A DNA stretch of 64,000 nt, taken from NCBI RefSeq assembly GCF_036785885.1, contig NC_092323.1, positions 7,200,501-7,264,500 on the forward strand, given 5' to 3'. How positions within the stretch are numbered: the first letter of the stretch is position 1; the number at the start of each line of letters is the position of its first letter. A program made the position numbers and the translations under genes. The notes under the pieces are model-generated. The model was not told where the DNA came from. It ran no database searches and was given only the letters and a program-made list of their open reading frames with translations. Shown here in pieces: positions 33,884-62,458 of this stretch. The stretch comes from Coffea arabica (Eukaryota; Streptophyta; Magnoliopsida; Gentianales; Rubiaceae).

Positions 33884-35917
33884 ATGGCTTCCGCCGTCTT
33901 GCCCAGCCGAAATGAGTCCTATTGGGCTGAACGCGAGGTTTGTATGAGGCAATTTCCAAACAACCGCACGAATCATCCCCATTTCTACCCGCGGTTGAAT
34001 CCTAAACCTCATCCTAACCCTAGCAGGTTTCCAAACCCCATTTTCAACTCAAATTTCAACGTTAGCCGGCAAATCATTGATCTTACAGCTAAAACTGGTC
34101 TCCGGCAGCGCAATGAACCATCACCCAGGCCTCCTTTCCTGCCACCTTCGGCGTCGATCAATGATCCGCACTCCTTTAACCGGAGTGCAGATGGGCCTCT
34201 TCTATCCAAGGATCCGTTTCACCGAGAGTACGTGACATTCAAAGCGTCATCGTACTCGAAAAGAGAGCTGAAAGAGCTGAAAAATCGACTAATCTCCGAC
34301 CTCGAACGGGTTCGGACCCTATTGACCCGAATACAGACCCGGGAGCTTGAGTTTAGACCCGGTTTTTGTAGGGCCCTATTCAGGCCGCCTGCTGTAGAAA
34401 CAAATCACATACCAGTGAACCTTACATCAGATGAGAAGCAGAACCAAAAGAACCGGGCATCCGGGTCAGTGACCCGAAAGGGTAAGGGCAAAAAGAACCA
34501 AAAACTTTCGGGGCAAAAAAGGGCTCTTGCTTTAGGTGATGCTCGAGAAACAAAGCGGCCGTTTGTGATCCCAACTTCATCAGAGGCCGAGAAGGCGTCG
34601 GAAACGGTGATGAAGAAATGTAAGCAGATTTTGATGACACTTATGAAGCAAAAGCACAGTTGGGTTTTTAATAAGCCCGTTGATGTTGTTCGTCTAAGGC
34701 TTCATGATTACTTCAAAGTCATAAAGCATCCAATGGATCTTGGGACTATCAAGTCTAATTTCAACAAAAGGGTGTACAAATCACCCCTTGAATTTGCTAC
34801 GGATGTAAGGCTGACTTTTAACAATGCCATGAGATATAACCCCAAAGGGCAAGATGTCCACGCAATGGCGGAGTCTATGCTTTGGAGTTTTGAAGAAATG
34901 TTTGAGCCCGTGTATCAGGAGTATGAAACCGGACATCGAAAACTGGCTGCTGAGAAGATGAACGAAATTACCAACTGGGTTCAGCTGGAACCGGTGATTG
35001 CGATGCCACAACCGATATTGTTGAGTTCGCCTTCATGTCAGAATGAGCAGATTCTGTTGTCTCCTGGATTGCAGAGTACAAGCGGGAAATTGCCAAACCC
35101 AAAAGCCAAGGATTCGAACAAGAGGCAAATGAGCAATGAGGAGAAGTCTAACTTGGGGTTGAATTTGCAGAATATGCCGCAGGAGAAGATGGAGCGCGTG
35201 GTGCAGATTGTCAGGAAGAGGAATCCTCATTTGGTGCCGGACGGAGATGAGATTGAACTTGATTTTGAGGTTCTTGACGATGACACTCTTTGGGATTTGG
35301 ATAGGTTCGTGAGTAATCACAAGAAAGCTCTGAGCAAGATGAAAAGGCAAGAACTCGTTGACGGTGCCAATTTGATCGAAGAAGGACCCAAGGTAACGAA
35401 TAAATGCCATAAGTTTGATATAATAAAGATTTTGACTTGTTTTAATTGGCTGATAATTCTTTAGTTATGGTAACAGTCTCCAGTTAGTGAGCCTTGTGAG
35501 GTGGATGTTGAACAGAACAACAAAGAAGATGCAGGGGAAGAGGATGTTGATATTGGAGAGGACATTCCAGCATTTGACTTTCCCCCTGTGGAGATTGAGA
35601 AGGATGTGGAGGTTGAGAAGGGTAATGCTGCTGCCTCCGTTCTGGAGGTTGAGATTGAGGACTGTGCTGGAGCTAATGGTGGATCCCGCAGCTCTAGTGG
35701 CGCAAGTTCTAGTAGTGATGATTCTTCTTCTGATGGTATTCTATTCTGCATTTATGTTTTTCTTTTGGCATATATAGTCCACAGAGACTGATGTTGGTGT
35801 TTGATACAATGTGTAGATTCAGATTCAGATTCTGGTAGTTCTTCAGGGAGTGATGATTCTGACGAGGATAGTGTACAGTCGCCTTATGTTGAAGCAAAAG
35901 GAGTCCCTGCAGCTTAA
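33884..35917 (+). CDS. GTE7: Bromodomain and NET-domain factor, GTE7/GTE2-like
   Basis: Three exons (33884-35392, 35477-35735, 35817-35917) give 622 residues; phase arithmetic rejects an alternative acceptor at 35483. The bromodomain (about residues 244-345) starts KKCKQILMTLMKQKHSWVF and contains HPMDLGTIKSNF and NNAMRYNPKGQDVHAMA; the NAMRYN motif includes the acetyl-lysine-binding asparagine. The NET domain (about 415-490) includes IVRKRNPHL and ELDFEVLDDDTLWDLDRF. The tail is serine- and acid-rich (SGASSSSDDSSSD, SDSDSGSSSGSDDSDED) with many potential CK2 sites. Plant GTE proteins are BET-type readers of acetylated histones that promote transcription. The domain order fits the GTE2/GTE7 group, and the neighbours also match that locus. 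The choice between GTE2 and GTE7 is uncertain. Confidence 0.95.
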
Positions 35918-42906: not shown

Positions 42907-45900
42907 TTATATGTGTGTATCTACTAACTCGTTGCCCGAACGACTACCGCAACCACCACAAGCACCAGCCTGGACACCGGCTGCACCCGCAATCTTATTC
43001 CCACAATTACCACCACAGCCTCCTCCACAACCACTAGCATTCACGTAGGGCGCACCACTGATCTTATTGCCACAACCGCCACCGCACCCCCCACCACAGC
43101 CTCCGCTCTTAATCATATTACCACAACCACCCCCACAACCTCCACCACATCCCCCACCACATCCTCCACCACAACCGCCACTCTTTAGCACATTCCCACA
43201 ATTAGCACCACATCCTCCACCACATCCCCCACAACCGCCACTCTTTAGCACATTCCCACAATTAGCACCACAACCACCACAAGCCCCACTCCTCACTTCA
43301 CTGCCACGCCCTCCACTACAGCCACCACCGGATGCTCCTCCTTTCCCCATTGTAATTGCATTTCCTTGCGAGACCTCAACATCTAACTTCCCATCTTCTT
43401 GTACTGTAGTTGGAATAGTTTTGCTGACATCCAACGGACATTTGCTAACTTCTTTATCTAAAAATTTGTTTTCCTCCAAATTCTTGCCGCTGGAATTAAT
43501 GCTGATATATCCCTCTTTTCTCAGTATCTCACCAAGTATGAAAGCCAGTACCAGACCAGGAAACAGCAACCACTCTTCATTAATCTATTTTTTCAACAGA
43601 AGATGCCGAGCATGGTAAGGCAAGGCAAGTTGAAAAGTCTTCACCTCAAATCTGTATAAACATTCATAAAGAATATAGTTTACCTTGACAGTTCCAGATT
43701 TGAAATCAAACAATGCCAATGCCTTGCCATAGGGGTCTTCCACAGAAAATTCAACTGCTGTCAGAAAGTCACGATCATTCCTTTGCTTCTCACAGTGCTT
43801 TGGCTCATATTCCAGCTTTCTACCAGGAAATAGTTTTACCTGTACCAAGCATGGAAAAGGTACGATGGATGCATGGTAAAAACTATAAAAACATCTTTCT
43901 GCCACAGGTTGAATTACAAAAGGATGTACCCTAGGTCTTATCTCTTGCTTACCCTCCAATTGTCACGTTTTTCCAAGCGATTCTTAAAGAGATCATATTT
44001 CTTAACTCATTCTTATATGAATCCCTAAGAACATTCCAAAAGGCTAAAACATAAAGACATATGGTATTTTTATTTTTCATTTTGGCACAGAGAAGATGGT
44101 TGTTTTTCATGGGATTTAGCTTAGCTAAATAGGTAATGGATTCTCTGTTCTTTGTTAATATCTTTGGTGTAGGAAAGAGCAAAAGAAAAAGCAGAGTGAA
44201 AAAAAAAGAAACTGGAAAATCTGAGGCTGCAATTTCCCTCAGGTATCATCGAAAAGAGCTAAACATATGAGAAGTTTTAATTTCTAGAAACTTGTATATA
44301 ATCAACTATGAAGAGAGGCAAATATCATGGTAAAGCAAAGGAAATCACATGATTGTGCAATTCCAATGTATCTGCACTGAAACACCTGGAAAAAGGATAA
44401 ATGCTTACTCTACGATCACCAATCAGCTCCAGAAGATATCCATCTTCATTGACAGTCCCTGGAAGCTTGACAGACCAGTTGGAATCTATCAGCAACCACT
44501 CTGTCCCAGTAAACTCTGCAACCCTGTTTGTGCCACCAGATTTTATGATGCCAATCACCTCTTTTTTCAACATGGAATCATTCTTTTCCTTTGACTTCTT
44601 GAAATCCCTAGAATAAAATAATGACTTATTTCAGATTATCTGCAGCACAGTTGAAATTCAATAAATGGAGAAACAAATAGTACTCATACTATCAGGACAC
44701 CGTAGTTTTGCATCTTTAGTGAAGTTGCAGAATATAATACAAGTAAGAAGAATGAAGATACGCTTATGATAAATCTCAAAGCAAAATCTTCAGGATCTGC
44801 CAAGCATAGTATCTGGAAGAATCAGCATTGACAAGCTCAAAAAGTTCCATCAGACAAGTTTAATCAGTCAGTTCCTGGGCCAAAGTTCATGTAAACACAT
44901 GTTGCAGCACAGTGTATGTCTTTGAATTTATTCTCAGTTAAATGCCAATATGAAGAAGACAATCCATGGGATGAACACAAAATTGGAGGTTAAATGCCAA
45001 CATGAAAAATATAATTGTATGAGATGAAGTACAAAGCCAAAGAACTTGAATACTTGCAATATGTAATGGCAAATGATTTAAGGAATTTCTAATAATATGT
45101 ACAAAGTGGAATTCCTTTTTTTAGTGGAGAACCTAGGCCCTTGTGCAGAAAGAAATTGTAGATGCTCCATAAACAGAAGAACTGTCACAAAAACAGCAAA
45201 TGTTTTAAACTCATACCTCATTTGAAGGCTGATGACTTCTTTGCCATTGTCATCAATGATGCGAGTCCAGCTCTTAGCTAGATGTACCCTTCCTGGCAAT
45301 GGGAAGAAGCAAGAATTTTTCGAGAATGGTAGTGAACGAATCAAGTGAAAAATGTGAGGTGCATTGGTTGGTACAGTAGTTGAAAGGGCAACTCGTAAGT
45401 AGATAGGCTTCGAGCTCAAATAATTAGAACTAGGTAACAACTCCAACCATTTTTCCATGGTAAGATTAGATAATGGGGACAATGAATCTTCCAGAGATAT
45501 GGAACAGGAACCCAGAGTCTTGGCTGGCTTCGATATCGGTAAGTTGGAAGCTGAGTGGCACATAAGTTCAAAGAACAGATTCCCAGTAGGTTGACATTGA
45601 AAACAAGCAACCTGTTTCTCCCCAGCCTGTGACAAAATAGTGAGACTTCTCTTGGCGTTGAAGATTGTGTCAGGCTGAGTCTTACTAAATGAGACAGAAA
45701 GGCCTCCCTTATGTCCCTCGCTAAGGTTTTTCACATCCACAAACTCCAGCATTACCTGAAACAATTTAGAGATTTATTTTTCTAGGTCAAAGATTAAGTA
45801 CAGAAAAACAAAGGCACCATGTGAACGTACAATGACAAATAACCTGGTTAAATGACCGCAAAAGGCCAATCCACCCCCAAGTTGGGAGCTTAGCCGAAGT

Positions 45901-50683: not shown

Positions 50684-53600
50684 TCACTTCCTGACCTCCT
50701 GATATTCTGTTTCTTGGGCTTCATCACCACCCTGAGGGTCAGACCCTCCAGAGGTATTCCCACCGCTACCTCCAGCCATATGCTCTCCAATCTTTGAAAC
50801 GGCTTTATTTGCAGCTTCCATCTTTGCCTTTATTTCATCAACATTTTCTCCATCCATTGCTTTCCGTAGATCTGAGACTGCAGATTGTATTTGAGTCACC
50901 ACCTCAGCTGGAACCTTATCCCTAAACTCTGTTAAGCTCTTCTCAATGCTATAAATGGTTGTCTCAGCAGAATTTCTCTGATCAATCAGTTCTTTTTTCT
51001 CCAGGTCCTTCTGTGAATGCAGCTCGGCTTCTTTGACCATCTTTTGAATCTCATCCTCAGAAAGCCCTCCGGATGAACGTATTGTTATCTGTTGTTCTTT
51101 CCCAGTAGTCTTGTCTTTAGCTGAAACTGTAACAATGCCATTGGCATCAATGTCAAATGTTACTTCAATTTGTGGATTCCCCCTAGGGGCAGGTGGAATT
51201 CCTTCAAGATTAAACTCCCCTAGAAGTTTGTTATCTGCTGCAAATTCGCGCTCCCCTTGAAGCACTTTAATATCAACTTGAGTTTGGTTATCAGCAGCTG
51301 TGGAGAAGACCTGAGATCAAAATAAACATAGGCTGAATAATTTGATCAAACCATCAAATTGTCCCTCCTGAAACATGTTTTATCTAAAGAGAAGTGCAAT
51401 AAACCATTTTAATCATGGTACAACAACGGCTAAGCAACTCTAAGATATCTAAAGTTTTAACATTGGTAGGAATATTCTGCAATGGTTATTTCCCGCATAG
51501 CCAAGGGCCTAATTATGACCATTACATTGCCATACACAAAACGTGAGTTGATGCATCTCCACGACCAAAACATAGGTGGGAGATGTTGAATGGAACAAGT
51601 TTTGGCAATATTAATTCTAAAGATCTACCAATCAGTTATCCTTTTCCTTGCAACAACTAGAATTCAAACGTATGCAAGTAAACTCACCTGGGACTTCTTT
51701 GTTGGAATTGTTGTATTTCTGTTAATTAACCTGGTGAAAATGCCACCCATAGTTTCTAAACCAAGTGAGAGAGGAGTTACATCCAATAACAGAAGATCCT
51801 TCACATCACCACGTAGAATACCACCCTGAATGGCGGCTCCCATTGCCACAGCCTCGTCAGGATTGACACCCTTGCTTGGGCTCTTACCAAAAATTTCAGC
51901 AACTACTTGCTGTACCTTAGGGACACGGGTCATTCCTCCAACCAGAAGAATTTCATCTATATCTGTGGTGGAGACACCGGCATCCTTCAGACAGCTTATA
52001 CAAGGGGCTTTAGTCCTTTCAATCAAGTGATATACAAGAGTCTCAAACTTTGATCTGGTCAAAGTCACATTAAAATGCTTTGCTCCAGAGGCATCTGCAG
52101 TTATGAATGGCAAGTTGATTTCAGTCTGAGATGTTGAAGAGAGTTCTATCTTTGCCTTTTCAGCAGCTTCTCGCAGCCTTTGCAGGGCAAGCTTGTCTTT
52201 TGATAGATCAATCCTCTCTGCCTTCTTGAATTCGCTCACCAAGAATTCCAGCATTGTGTTGTCAAAATCCTCTCCTCCCAAAAATGTGTCTCCATTAGTT
52301 GCTTTTACCTGTTTGCAGACGTTTAAACAACCAACATAAGACACATAAAGGAGATGCAGATCACATAAAACATGTAAAGAGAGTTTTTCCCCCCTTGGTA
52401 ATAACATGTAAAGATTGATGATTACCTCAAAGACACCATTTGATATCTCTAGAATGGAAATGTCAAAAGTACCACCTCCTAGATCAAAAACTGCGATTGT
52501 CCCTTCCTTGTTGTTGACTCCATAAGAAAGTGCAGCAGCAGTGGGTTCATTAATTATTCTTTCCACAGTAAGACCTGCTATCCTCCCAGCATCCTTTGTA
52601 GCTTGTCTTTGAGCATCATTGAAGTAGGCTGGAACCGTAATTACAGCTCTGTTCACACTTTTGTTAAGGTAAGATTCGGCGGTCTCTTTCATCTTAGTAA
52701 GTATGAATGCTCCAACCTGGCTGGGAGAGTACGTTTGTCCATTAGCTTCAACCCAAGCATCTCCATTAGGTGCTCTGACTATCTTAAAAGGCACCATTTT
52801 CAATTCCTTTTGTGTCTGAGGATCATCAAAACGCCTTCCTATGTAACGTTTAGTGGCGAAAAGTGTATTTTGTGGATTGGTCACAGCTTGACGTTTTGCC
52901 GTAGCTCCCACAAGCAAGTCTCCTTTCTGGCTAAAAGCAACTACAGATGGGGTGGTTCGGGTTCCTTCGGCATTCTCAATAACTCTGGCAGTCTACACCA
53001 ATCATTAGTGAACAATGAGTGAAACTGCTCATGCAAGTTATTCTGCAAGGCTAAAGAAGTATCAAGTCAAATGAGAAAGAAGAACTAAACCTTTCCCTCC
53101 ATAAGTGCAACACATGAATTTGTGGTACCCAGGTCAATTCCAATGACATCATCAGCTAGTGGCCTTGAACTTAAGATGGAAAAAAGGAAAACGCATTAGC
53201 AGACCAGGAAAGTTCAAAAGGCAGAAATCAAGCTGTTGCCAGGTTGTGGTTACCTGAAGTATCTGAGACTAGTCAACATCCTTGACAAAGGAGAGGTAGC
53301 AGGGGATGCCTTAACATTTCCCACCAACTGCAATAGCAAAAGTATACATGATAATCTTCAGACAAATGCAAACATCAATTCTTGGAAACTCCTCAGATCT
53401 GCTTATTATTACAACCTGTTATTTGAACGGATTATCACGGGAACAATCCCAAGTACCATGCTCAAAAACCAGCACTAGCTTAACAGTAACAGGACAAAAG
53501 ATTGAGGCCTAAGAGTAACCGAAGAGCATGCAAATAACAACTAATTCATGTAGAACAAACTAGGCTAAACCAATTAGATCTGCCAACCAGCTGATTATTG

Positions 53601-58155: not shown

Positions 58156-59625
58156 GCTTTGCTTGGCTTGGTTGCCGGGAATGAAAGATGAGGGAGAGAG
58201 TTAGGAACAGTTGGGAAGAGTAGAAACTCGGACGATTAAACCGCCCCTTTGTTACGTCGTCGTGCAGCTGATTTCTACAAAACCCATCTAAACCCCTTAC
58301 ATTTCTGTAGATTCTTGGTTACTTGCTACGCAGCAGGTAGGGAAATCATAGAAGGATGTCGATCCCTCAATCTAAGGTCCCATGGACCGTGGGATGCCCA
58401 TGCCTAAATGGATTTAACTTTTCTTTTCATAGCCCTTAACTCTTTTTTTTTTTGACACTTCCTTTAATAGCTGTATACGTATTTTTACTTGTGCTGGTGA
58501 AATATTTGCAGTTTTTAATTAACATCGTTAACAGTAGAAGAAATAAGCACCTCAGTATGGTAAAAGGCACTACAAAATCATTACTATCATCCAACACTTC
58601 TGATTTAAAAGATCAAATAAGGGTAGAGGATCCCCTTTTGAGTACAGGACAAATTGAGTTAAAATATGTTATTTGGATGCATTAGCTCAGGCCGAGCCAG
58701 TAGCCACCGAGGGAATCCTATTACATTATCAAAATGTTGGTGGCTTGTCACAACTCACAAACTTCAGTAATCAAAAGTTAACATCACAATCAATTAGCAC
58801 TATAAATCATTATAGTCAAAACTATCCGATGAAACAAGAGTTTTGGAAACAAGCTCGAAGGGAGGAACCAGGGAGACCTGAGTGTTCCTAGCTAATGGTA
58901 ACCTGCTAGTGCAACCGAAATTTTGTAGCTCAGGGAACCATGGTAATTTTCACGGTTTAGTCATTGAACAGAGCTCAGTTAATTCAGCTCTATGCAACCA
59001 CCTAGTGGGTCACGATTGATGCCAGTTCTTTGCTGTTCTACACCACCGCATATGCTCTAGAAGTGTTGCCATAACCGCATTCTGAGAATGACCTTTAGGC
59101 GTTGGCGTTTTGGACAGAGACGTTAAAAGTACAGAGCATTAGCCATGAGCTGAATAACTTACAAAATCTAGCTGTAGATAGCTAATCAGCTAATGGACAC
59201 TCTAATTCTCCGCACATTTTGCTTTAAACTGATAGGGCAGAATTTGCACCAGTAACTATGCCAAAATCACCACTTTTTGTTGGGAGTATAATTATGTTGA
59301 TTGAAAAGGATGTCTTATGCATGTGCATTTGAGGCCTCATCTTAACTACTTTTTAAGGTAAAATTAATTGAAATGTACTAGAATCCTCAGCGTGGTAATT
59401 GGCCAAGTTGCCATTTTGGCAGTTCTATGTTACAAGTATTGCAGAATAGCTTGAATAGTAGTTTACATAAATCGACACAATAGCGTACATTTGTGAGCAA
59501 ATCATTGAGCATTTCAGTGATCCGTCCATACATCTGCCAACAGAGAAAATTTTATCAAAGAACATCATGAAGTAGAAAGATTTGTCAGGATTGGTAACAT
59601 AAGATAGATACAAAAGGGATGAAGC
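58156..59625. other. Divergent intergenic region before STR2
   Basis: Lies between two divergently transcribed genes. The first 200 bp probably form the promoter and leader of the At4g37920-like gene. Farther on, frames at 58452-58685 and 58673-58891 (MDALAQAEPVATEG, then LLHYQNVGGLSQL) look somewhat protein-like but have no recognisable domain, no continuing exon and no matching neighbour. I leave them uncalled. Confidence 0.4.
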
Positions 59626-59684
59626 AAACAAGATGGCATATTCTCCTTTTTCGATCAAAACGATTAAAACCGGACTACTCAATG
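59626..59684. promoter_or_regulatory. Candidate mycorrhiza-response motif cluster of STR2
   Basis: Three motifs known from mycorrhiza-induced promoters lie within 59 bp. AAACAAGAT (59626-59634) is the reverse complement of ATCTTGTTT, with the CTTGTT core of the MYCS/CTTC element. Two bases on, GCATATTC (59636-59643) fits the P1BS consensus GNATATNC bound by PHR factors. CGGACTACTCAATG (59671-59684) fits the AW-box CG(N)7CNANG bound by WRI-type factors. The block lies about 235-295 bp upstream of the STR2 start codon. The motifs are short and could occur by chance. Confidence 0.5.
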
Positions 59685-59918: not shown

Positions 59919-62458
59919 ATGATGGGAGCTGCAAATAATGGCCATCGTCCTGATATAGCAATCGAAATAGGGAAACCGACCCACTTCACTGGAGGCGTAG
60001 AATTCTCAAGCCTTACATACACTATCATAAAGAAGAAGGAGGAGGATGGTAAATGGGTGAGTAAGGAAGTCGACTTATTGCATAAGATCACTGGCTATGC
60101 ACCAAAAGGATGCATCACAGCAGTTATGGGTCCAAGTGGAGCTGGGAAATCAACACTCTTGGATGGATTGGCCGGAAGAATTGCCAGTGGAAGTCTGAGG
60201 GGAAGAGTTTCCTTGGATGGGATGGACACTAGTCCAAGTTTGATCAAAAGAACTTCAGCATATATAATGCAGGATGATAGACTCTTCCCAATGCTGACAG
60301 TCTATGAGACACTAATGTTTGCTGCCGATTTCAGACTCGGACCAATCTCAAGGTCAGAGAAAAGACAGCGCGTTGAGCAGCTGATCGAGCAACTTGGTCT
60401 ATCCGTAAGTTCACCAGCCTCTCTTCCTTGTCTCTTTTGCAAGTTGAAGTAGTAAACGTTTGGACAGTTTTTTGCCTTTCAGTACCAGAATAAAATCATA
60501 AGTACGCAATCTAATGCTTGCATTTTTTCCTTGTAGACCACTAGGAACACTTACATAGGGGATGAAGGAACTCGAGGAGTGTCCGGAGGTGAACGTCGTA
60601 GGGTCTCAATCGGCGTTGATATCATACATGGACCTACATTACTCTTCTTGGATGAGCCTACTTCAGGACTAGATTCCACCAGTGCTCACAGTGTTATTGA
60701 GAAAGTACACGATATCGCACGAACAGGGAGCACTGTAATACTGACAATTCACCAGCCTTCGTCCCGTATCCAGTTGCTTCTTGATCATCTCATAATCCTA
60801 GCTCGTGGACAGCTAATGTACCAAGGATCTCCCAAGGATGTGACTCTCCATCTGGGGCGCATGGGGCGCAAAGTCCCAAAAGGGGAAAACTCCATAGAGT
60901 ACCTGATTGATGTGATCCAAGAGTATGATCAGTCTGAGCTAGGAGTTGAGGCTCTTGCAGCATTTACCCTTACTGGGATGAAACCTCCATCATTATCTGC
61001 AGATGGTTTCTCAACTTCTACTGTCCTTCCATCTCCATCTCCAGCTCCACGTTCTGGTCAGCGGGCAAATGAAATGAGAGACAAAAGTGGAAAAAACGTT
61101 CGATTACAATCTGGAGCAGATGATGAATTTGATAATAGTGTGAGGAGTCCATGGAACACATCAAGGTCTTGGACCCAAAGTGGAATTATGCAAGCACTGA
61201 TGTTTACACCAACTAGGCAACACCCGGACCATAGACTTCCAATGAGGTAAACGCCATAGTCTTCAATTCTCAATTTCTTGTTTCCAATTCCAATTTTCAA
61301 GCTATCTAAGTCTAAACTAAATTCATCCCAGTAAGAGCTCCACCATTGCTCTTAGCCTCTTACTGATTATGCTTATCTGTACAGTTTCTGACAAAATTTT
61401 AACGTCTAATTAGGGTCTCAAATCATTTGGTTTTTATAGTTTTCCCTTAATCTCTCTCTCCGCAATTGTGCAGTTCATCACCAGGCTACTACACCTCCTC
61501 CAGTGATATGCTTCAAGGCACTCCAACACCTCATAGCAGCGATTACACTGTGAATGAGAATGACTATCTGACCCCAGATGTTGCTCCAGACAAGAGGGCA
61601 TACCTCCATCTAGGACCAAAATTTTCGAATTCCTTCTTCCTTGAGACTTGGATACTCATGCGCCGAAACTTCATAACCATCAGGCGGACCCCTGAACTTT
61701 TCCTTTCCAGACTAATGGTCCTAATAGTAATGGGCATCATGATGGCAACAATGTTCTGGCACCCTCCAAAAAACATGCAAGGAATTACAGACCGTATTAG
61801 TTTCTTCATCTTTACAGTCTGTCTCTTTTTCTTTTCTTCCAATGATGCTGTCCCTGCTTTCATCCAGGAACGTTTCATCTTTGTTCGCGAAACTTCTCAT
61901 AATGCCTACAGAGCCTCATCATATACCATTGCTGGTCTAATCACTTACCTTCCCTTTCTTGCAATCCAGGCTGCAGCTTATGCTGTCATTGTTTGGTTCG
62001 CATTGAAGCTTCGCGGGCCATTCCTTTATTTCTTGCTCGTTCTCTACATGTCCCTTTTGTCCACCAACTCATTTGTGGTGTTCGTTAGCTCAATCGTGCC
62101 GAATTACATACTTGGCTATGCAGCAGTAATTGCATTCACTGCTCTGTTCTTCTTGTTCTGCGGGTACTTCTTGAACAGCCATGATATCCCCAAATATTGG
62201 AAATGGATGAACTACATTTCAACGATGACATATCCATATGAAGGGCTTCTGATGAATCAATACCAGACTCCAATTAGTTTTGGAAAAAATCCAATAGGAC
62301 AAGAAGTAACTGGATTTGGGATTTTGAATTCGCTACATATTCGTACAGAGGAATCAAAAAAGTTGGAAAAGGTCTACTTCATGTTGGGATGGGCTGTCCT
62401 CTACAGAATTCTTTTTTACGTGGTTCTGCGCTTCTTTTCAAAGAACCAGAGGACATAA
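59919..62458 (+). CDS. STR2: Half-size ABCG transporter STR2
   Basis: Three exons (59919-60404, 60537-61246, 61474-62458) encode 726 residues, matching the usual length of STR2. The nucleotide-binding domain comes first: Walker A GPSGAGKS (71-78), ABC signature VSGGERRR (177-184), Walker B LLFLDEP (197-203) and H-loop TIHQPSS. A Ser/Pro-rich linker follows, then a six-helix ABC2 membrane domain (about 460-720) starting FFLETWILMRRNF and including FFFSSNDAVPAFIQERFIF. The C-terminus is RFFSKNQRT. The reverse-type domain order and the linker motifs TPTPHSSDY and ENDYLTP match STR2. STR2 pairs with STR at the periarbuscular membrane and is required for arbuscule growth, probably exporting lipid to the fungus. 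STR2 is absent from non-mycorrhizal Arabidopsis. The second Met is an equally good start. Confidence 0.95.

Follow-up and report, generated by a model that had tools for sequence, protein, structure and literature searches.

The proximal promoter of a putative STR2 gene of Coffea arabica contains a MYCS/CTTC-type core close to a perfect AW-box, and the two probably constitute the working part of an ordinary mycorrhizal promoter element of the WRI/CBX1-RAM1 type. The MYCS-core and AW-box pair upstream of STR2 looks real: the same combination was found at three further mycorrhizal genes and in none of the control promoters. The comparisons described here separate the recurring part of a three-motif cluster (core and AW-box) from a part that does not recur, a P1BS.

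The DNA analysed (the window) is a stretch of 64,000 nucleotides, C14:7200501-7264500, from a genome of 1.198 Gb in 131 contigs. Protein matches in this genome were found on C1-C7 and C9-C22, mostly on adjacent contig pairs with near-equal scores. The gene with its ATG at 59919 encodes a product of 726 aa, in which a domain search placed a single ABC_tran domain ahead of a single ABC2_membrane domain, the composition of a half-size ABCG protein. The gene is presumably STR2, as the preliminary description labelled it; its predicted product fits an STR2-type half-size ABCG lipid exporter. C13 alone among the matches listed carries a near-identical copy (97-98% identity). Elsewhere in the window are two adjoining open frames with HSP70 matches (50684-52917, minus strand), a bromodomain and BET domain protein of 526 aa (33884-35464, plus strand) and an open reading frame with a C2_GRDP match, the C2 domain of glycine-rich domain-containing proteins (45078-45764, minus strand).

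Table 1. Positions, in window coordinates, of the STR2 exons and of the motifs upstream of them.
Feature	Position	Strand	Basis and homeolog
STR2 exon 1	59919..60404	+	Splice sites from sequence; C13 homeolog aligns across exon 1
STR2 exon 2	60537..61246	+	Splice sites from sequence
STR2 exon 3, ends at stop	61474..62458	+	Splice sites from sequence
MYCS/CTTC core TCTTGTT (AACAAGA on plus strand)	59627..59633	-	Pattern scan; same in C13 homeolog
P1BS GCATATTC, palindromic consensus GNATATNC	59636..59643	.	Pattern scan; C13 homeolog has GCATTTTC
AW-box CGGACTACTCAATG, minus strand CATTGAGTAGTCCG, pattern CNTNG(N)7CG	59671..59684	-	Same in C13 homeolog
Distal AW-box CCTAGTGGGTCACG	59001..59014	+	Both STR2 homeologs
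Distal P1BS GCATATGC	59048..59055	.	Both STR2 homeologs; 55-bp span with distal AW-box
CCTTGT, cMYCS hexamer of WRI5 promoters in the accessible part of PMC12130850	59849..59854	+	Pattern scan

The preliminary description had reported a MYCS core, a perfect P1BS and a perfect AW-box about 235-295 bp upstream of the ATG, and a pattern scan found all three within 59627-59684, at -292 to -235. The antisense orientation given for the core was correct; the AW-box, for which no strand had been given, is antisense as well and occupies -248 to -235, 44 bp beyond the antisense AACAAGA at -292. The core and the P1BS had been placed one base apart; they are separated by two, or by three if AAACAAG at 59626-59632 was meant. 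The MYCS match had been described as limited to its core, and this was borne out: CTTGTT, the core as defined in the accessible part of PMC12130850, is present and the final C of CTTGTTC is missing; upstream of STR2 the heptamer matches in neither homeolog, and the complete MYCS element of 11 bases, TTTCTTGTTCT, has no match anywhere in the window. A longer core, TTCTTGTT, given in one passage of the accessible part of PMC12130850, is matched at STR2 in seven of its eight bases. The AW-box is perfect in both homeologs. The CCTTGT closer to the ATG is a short motif and may well be a chance match. A repeat origin for the cluster was ruled out, as the surrounding 201 bp match C14 and the C13 homeolog alone. 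Some 2 kb past the STR2 stop codon is a further cluster, with two matches each to the P1BS and the AW-box within approximately 70 bp (L064:561-627, or 64561-64627 in window coordinates, past the window end).

The frequency with which such a cluster arises by chance was estimated from shuffled sequences. When the 600 bp upstream of STR2 were dinucleotide-shuffled, the trio fell within 60 bp in 7 of 20,000 cases with CTTGTT as the core and in 1 of 20,000 with TCTTGTT; the 1,719-bp intergenic stretch treated in the same way gave 15 and 1 of 8,000, respectively. Because the motifs and the span were chosen after the sequence was seen, these rates, and the 104-kb result that follows, are optimistic. 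The cluster nonetheless stands up to the shuffled-promoter comparison proposed in the preliminary description. The STR2 trio is also the sole trio, and contains the sole pair of core and AW-box within 60 bp, in 104 kb of contiguous sequence. Across the same 104 kb there are eight combinations of P1BS and AW-box within 60 bp, and P1BS matches occur at 0.26 per kb; a genome count of P1BS was set aside, since its reversed pattern contains CG and offers no fair control. A pair of the distal type, AW-box with P1BS, is not especially rare: 165 of the 8,000 shuffled 1,719-bp sequences contained one.

Taken singly, the motifs are common, as had been anticipated: 600-bp shuffles contained an AW-box in 22% of cases, CTTGTT in 42% and a P1BS in 12%. 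These rates are consistent with all three matches being coincidental and STR2 being driven by other sites, for instance by AW-box-like motifs nearer the ATG as in Medicago, where the accessible part of PMC10505183 attributes induction of STR2 in arbuscule-containing cells to such motifs at -124 and -156 and to ERM1. The homeologs, which show no constraint on the motif bases (see below), are compatible with the same explanation. It is nevertheless unlikely, given that core and AW-box occur as a single pair in the 104 kb and that this pair recurs at STR1, PT4 and one VAPYRIN homeolog and at none of the controls.

The search for the pair beyond STR2 followed the discovery of the STR2 pair, and covered four mycorrhizal (AM) genes, STR2, STR1, PT4 and VAPYRIN, with two homeologs each. 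Within 600 bp upstream, a CTTGTT core and an AW-box fell within 60 bp of each other in seven of these eight promoters (both homeologs of STR2, STR1 and PT4, and one of the two of VAPYRIN). No pair was found in 16 control promoters, whether 600 or 1,110 bp were searched and whether spans of 60 or 100 bp were allowed; these controls comprised eight PHT1, three other PHT1-like and five ABCG paralogue promoters, and represent eight homeolog or tandem groups from two gene families. With promoters grouped by homeolog or tandem relationship, the comparison is four of four AM genes against none of eight controls, one in 495 by Fisher's test. The pair was present in 53-83 of 4,000 shuffles per 600-bp promoter, four promoters being shuffled, one for each AM gene.

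A background of 257,630 partly overlapping bases yielded six matches to CTTGTT with an AW-box, five of which trace to a single homologous site present in three physical copies at PHT1-like genes; it yielded no TCTTGTT with an AW-box, and no trio. This background left out the STR2, STR1, PT4 and VAPYRIN loci, window bases from 58200 on, and several overlapping loci (L004, L009-L014, L020, L029, L030, L040, L045, L051-L054, L060-L062, L067 and L068); overlaps persist among part of the loci that were retained. The CTTGTTC heptamer was found within about 1.47 kb in 6 of 11 PHT1-type control promoters and is no sure mark of AM genes in the Coffea arabica genome. Single motifs are, in short, less telling than the pair of core and AW-box.

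The individual promoters differ in detail. The STR1 candidate on C5 and C6 is an intron-bearing relative (75% identity or less over one stretch), which we take to be STR1 (STR) from its N-terminus. Its promoter has an antisense AACAAGA at -309 on C5 and at -308 on C6, followed 24 and 45 bp further on by antisense AW-boxes. In L029 and L030, the loci of a transporter presumed from N-terminal features to be of the PT4 type, both homeologs show the same three sites: a P1BS at -289, CTTGTTC at -166 and an AW-box at -160. A domain search of the C11 copy of VAPYRIN found MSP and ankyrin repeats, and its promoter (L067) reads GAACAAGTC at -282 with an AW-box at -242. The extended CTTC element GACTTGTTC is whole on C11 at approximately -277, and is broken in the C12 promoter (L068) by an A-to-T difference: there the AW-box is kept and the CTTC element reads GAACATGTC. 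This change is the sole difference between C11 and C12 in about 275 bp of aligned VAPYRIN upstream sequence. FatM was considered as a further AM gene; its PF01643 matches on C1/C2 and C11/C12 were unassignable, and it was left uncounted.

The alignment of the two STR2 homeologs covers 1,456 bp of upstream sequence and runs into exon 1; of its 1,574 columns, 1,515 are identical, 22 are mismatched and 37 contain gaps. The P1BS is not kept: position 59640 is A on C14 and T on C13, so that the match to GNATATNC near the core, GCATATTC on C14, becomes GCATTTTC on C13. This substitution stands alone in the approximately 405 bp that separate the neighbouring events at 59358 and 59764. If it is ignored, the longest distance free of events measures 406 bp, a length attained in 0.4% of random placements; if it is included, the longest is 282 bp (6.5% of random placements). 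The difference may be either a gain on C14 or a loss on C13. The C13 homeolog (L052) also has an 11-bp insertion directly 5' of the STR2 ATG (window 59905), and the resulting CAAACAAACTTGTTTGG is a short, imperfect palindrome that contains a CTTGTT core.

Across the four AM genes, 2 of 79 motif bases changed between homeologs, the flanking rate predicting 1.34. The homeologs are too similar for such a comparison to demonstrate constraint, and homeolog conservation was rejected as proof of function, the motif bases having changed at much the same rate as their flanks. Absence of the P1BS from one homeolog was likewise rejected as proof that it has no function, because one VAPYRIN homeolog loses its CTTC element despite the presence of the extended element in 14 of 14 VAPYRIN promoters, as stated (data not shown there) in the accessible part of PMC4274732.

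The preliminary description had proposed that the whole trio is one module linking phosphate status to lipid export; PHR at the P1BS and WRI/CBX1 factors at the sites flanking it would couple the two in this copy of STR2. The half of this proposal that concerns the core and the AW-box is supported by the recurrence of that pair and its absence from the controls; the phosphate link is unsupported as a conserved unit. The rarity of the trio in shuffles and the perfect P1BS both argue for a single module, as do the P1BS of PT4, which is kept in both homeologs and lies about 95-115 bp from the PT4 cores, and the accessible part of PMC8789775, which describes an action of PHR2 and P1BS on AM genes and the frequent occurrence of P1BS alongside CTTC or MYCS motifs. 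Against this, the P1BS differs in the homeolog while the surrounding 405 bp or so are otherwise unchanged, and none was found in the 2 kb upstream of STR1 or in about 1.5 kb upstream of VAPYRIN, in either homeolog. Moreover, a P1BS is expected inside a 60-bp interval in approximately 1-2% of cases (an estimate from the density per kb), and one such site among four genes is for that reason weak evidence. A three-part module thus appears rather unlikely.

The proximal P1BS is best regarded as unproven, because STR1 and VAPYRIN have no P1BS in the stretches searched and because the distal pair is common to both STR2 copies; on sequence grounds it may be either incidental or an extra input specific to one homeolog. 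As the distal AW-box and P1BS are whole in both homeologs, a phosphate input could be common to the two. A phosphate link through the P1BS, unsupported as a conserved module, is unrefuted for the window copy of STR2. A further suggestion, and a highly improbable one, is that the homeologs share the activator pair and that the one base that makes or breaks the P1BS places a phosphate-starvation input near the activator in one copy. If that were true, then together with the loss of the VAPYRIN CTTC element it would mean that the subgenomes divide mycorrhizal control by single-base changes. The STR2 homeologs in any event form a natural one-base test of the importance of the P1BS.

The best explanation for these observations is the WRI/CBX1-RAM1-type element. 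The interval 59627-59684 would then belong to the proximal promoter of a half-size ABCG lipid exporter of the STR2 type. As to the protein that binds the pair and each step of expression, we infer that WRINKLED1-like AP2 factors (CBX1/WRI3/WRI5) acting with RAM1, or related AP2/ERF factors such as ERM1, would read the pair, and that it would turn STR2 on in arbuscule-containing cells along with STR1, PT4 and VAPYRIN. On this explanation the MYCS/AW promoter code of the legume papers is extended to STR2 and, beyond legumes, to a crop among the woody asterids; among the titles and abstract openings of a partial literature collection, no STR2 promoter outside Medicago was found.

Three known systems resemble the coffee promoter. 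In Lotus, according to the accessible part of PMC12130850, RAM1 with DNA-binding WRI factors activates RAM2, STR and PT4 via MYCS elements and AW-boxes, and the STR promoter has two AW-boxes besides a single putative MYCS element. Coffee STR2 resembles such WRI/CBX1-RAM1 targets of Lotus and Medicago in that a gene for a periarbuscular transporter has a MYCS core near a perfect AW-box in its proximal promoter, and coffee STR1, with two neighbouring AW-boxes and a MYCS core, resembles Lotus STR as it appears in that part of the source. Coffee STR2 differs in that its core, TCTTGTT, lacks the CTTGTTC heptamer; in the accessible part of PMC4274732, CTTGTTC shows only moderate over-representation among AM-induced genes, and the longer GACTTGTTC is taken to be the form that matters.

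The MYCS-P1BS or CTTC-P1BS module of mycorrhizal phosphate transporters and LjVTI12 is similar in that a MYCS-type core adjoins a P1BS in an AM promoter, and different in that coffee STR2 has no strict CTTC element and the P1BS is missing from the homeolog and from the STR1 and VAPYRIN stretches searched. The third system is Medicago STR2 itself, for which the accessible part of PMC10505183 reports that the 250-bp promoter is bound by the ERF factor ERM1 and unbound by WRI5a, and that WRI5a transactivated the promoter independently of the AW-box-like motifs. In this respect the gene differs from the WRI/CBX1-RAM1 targets, its Medicago counterpart having, in that part of the source, AW-box-like motifs and ERM1 without WRI5a binding. 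The coffee and Medicago promoters share the gene type and AW-class elements in the proximal promoter, whereas the coffee AW-box is perfect, lies farther from the ATG and is accompanied by a MYCS core, a combination that would suit either WRI with RAM1 or an ERM1-type factor.
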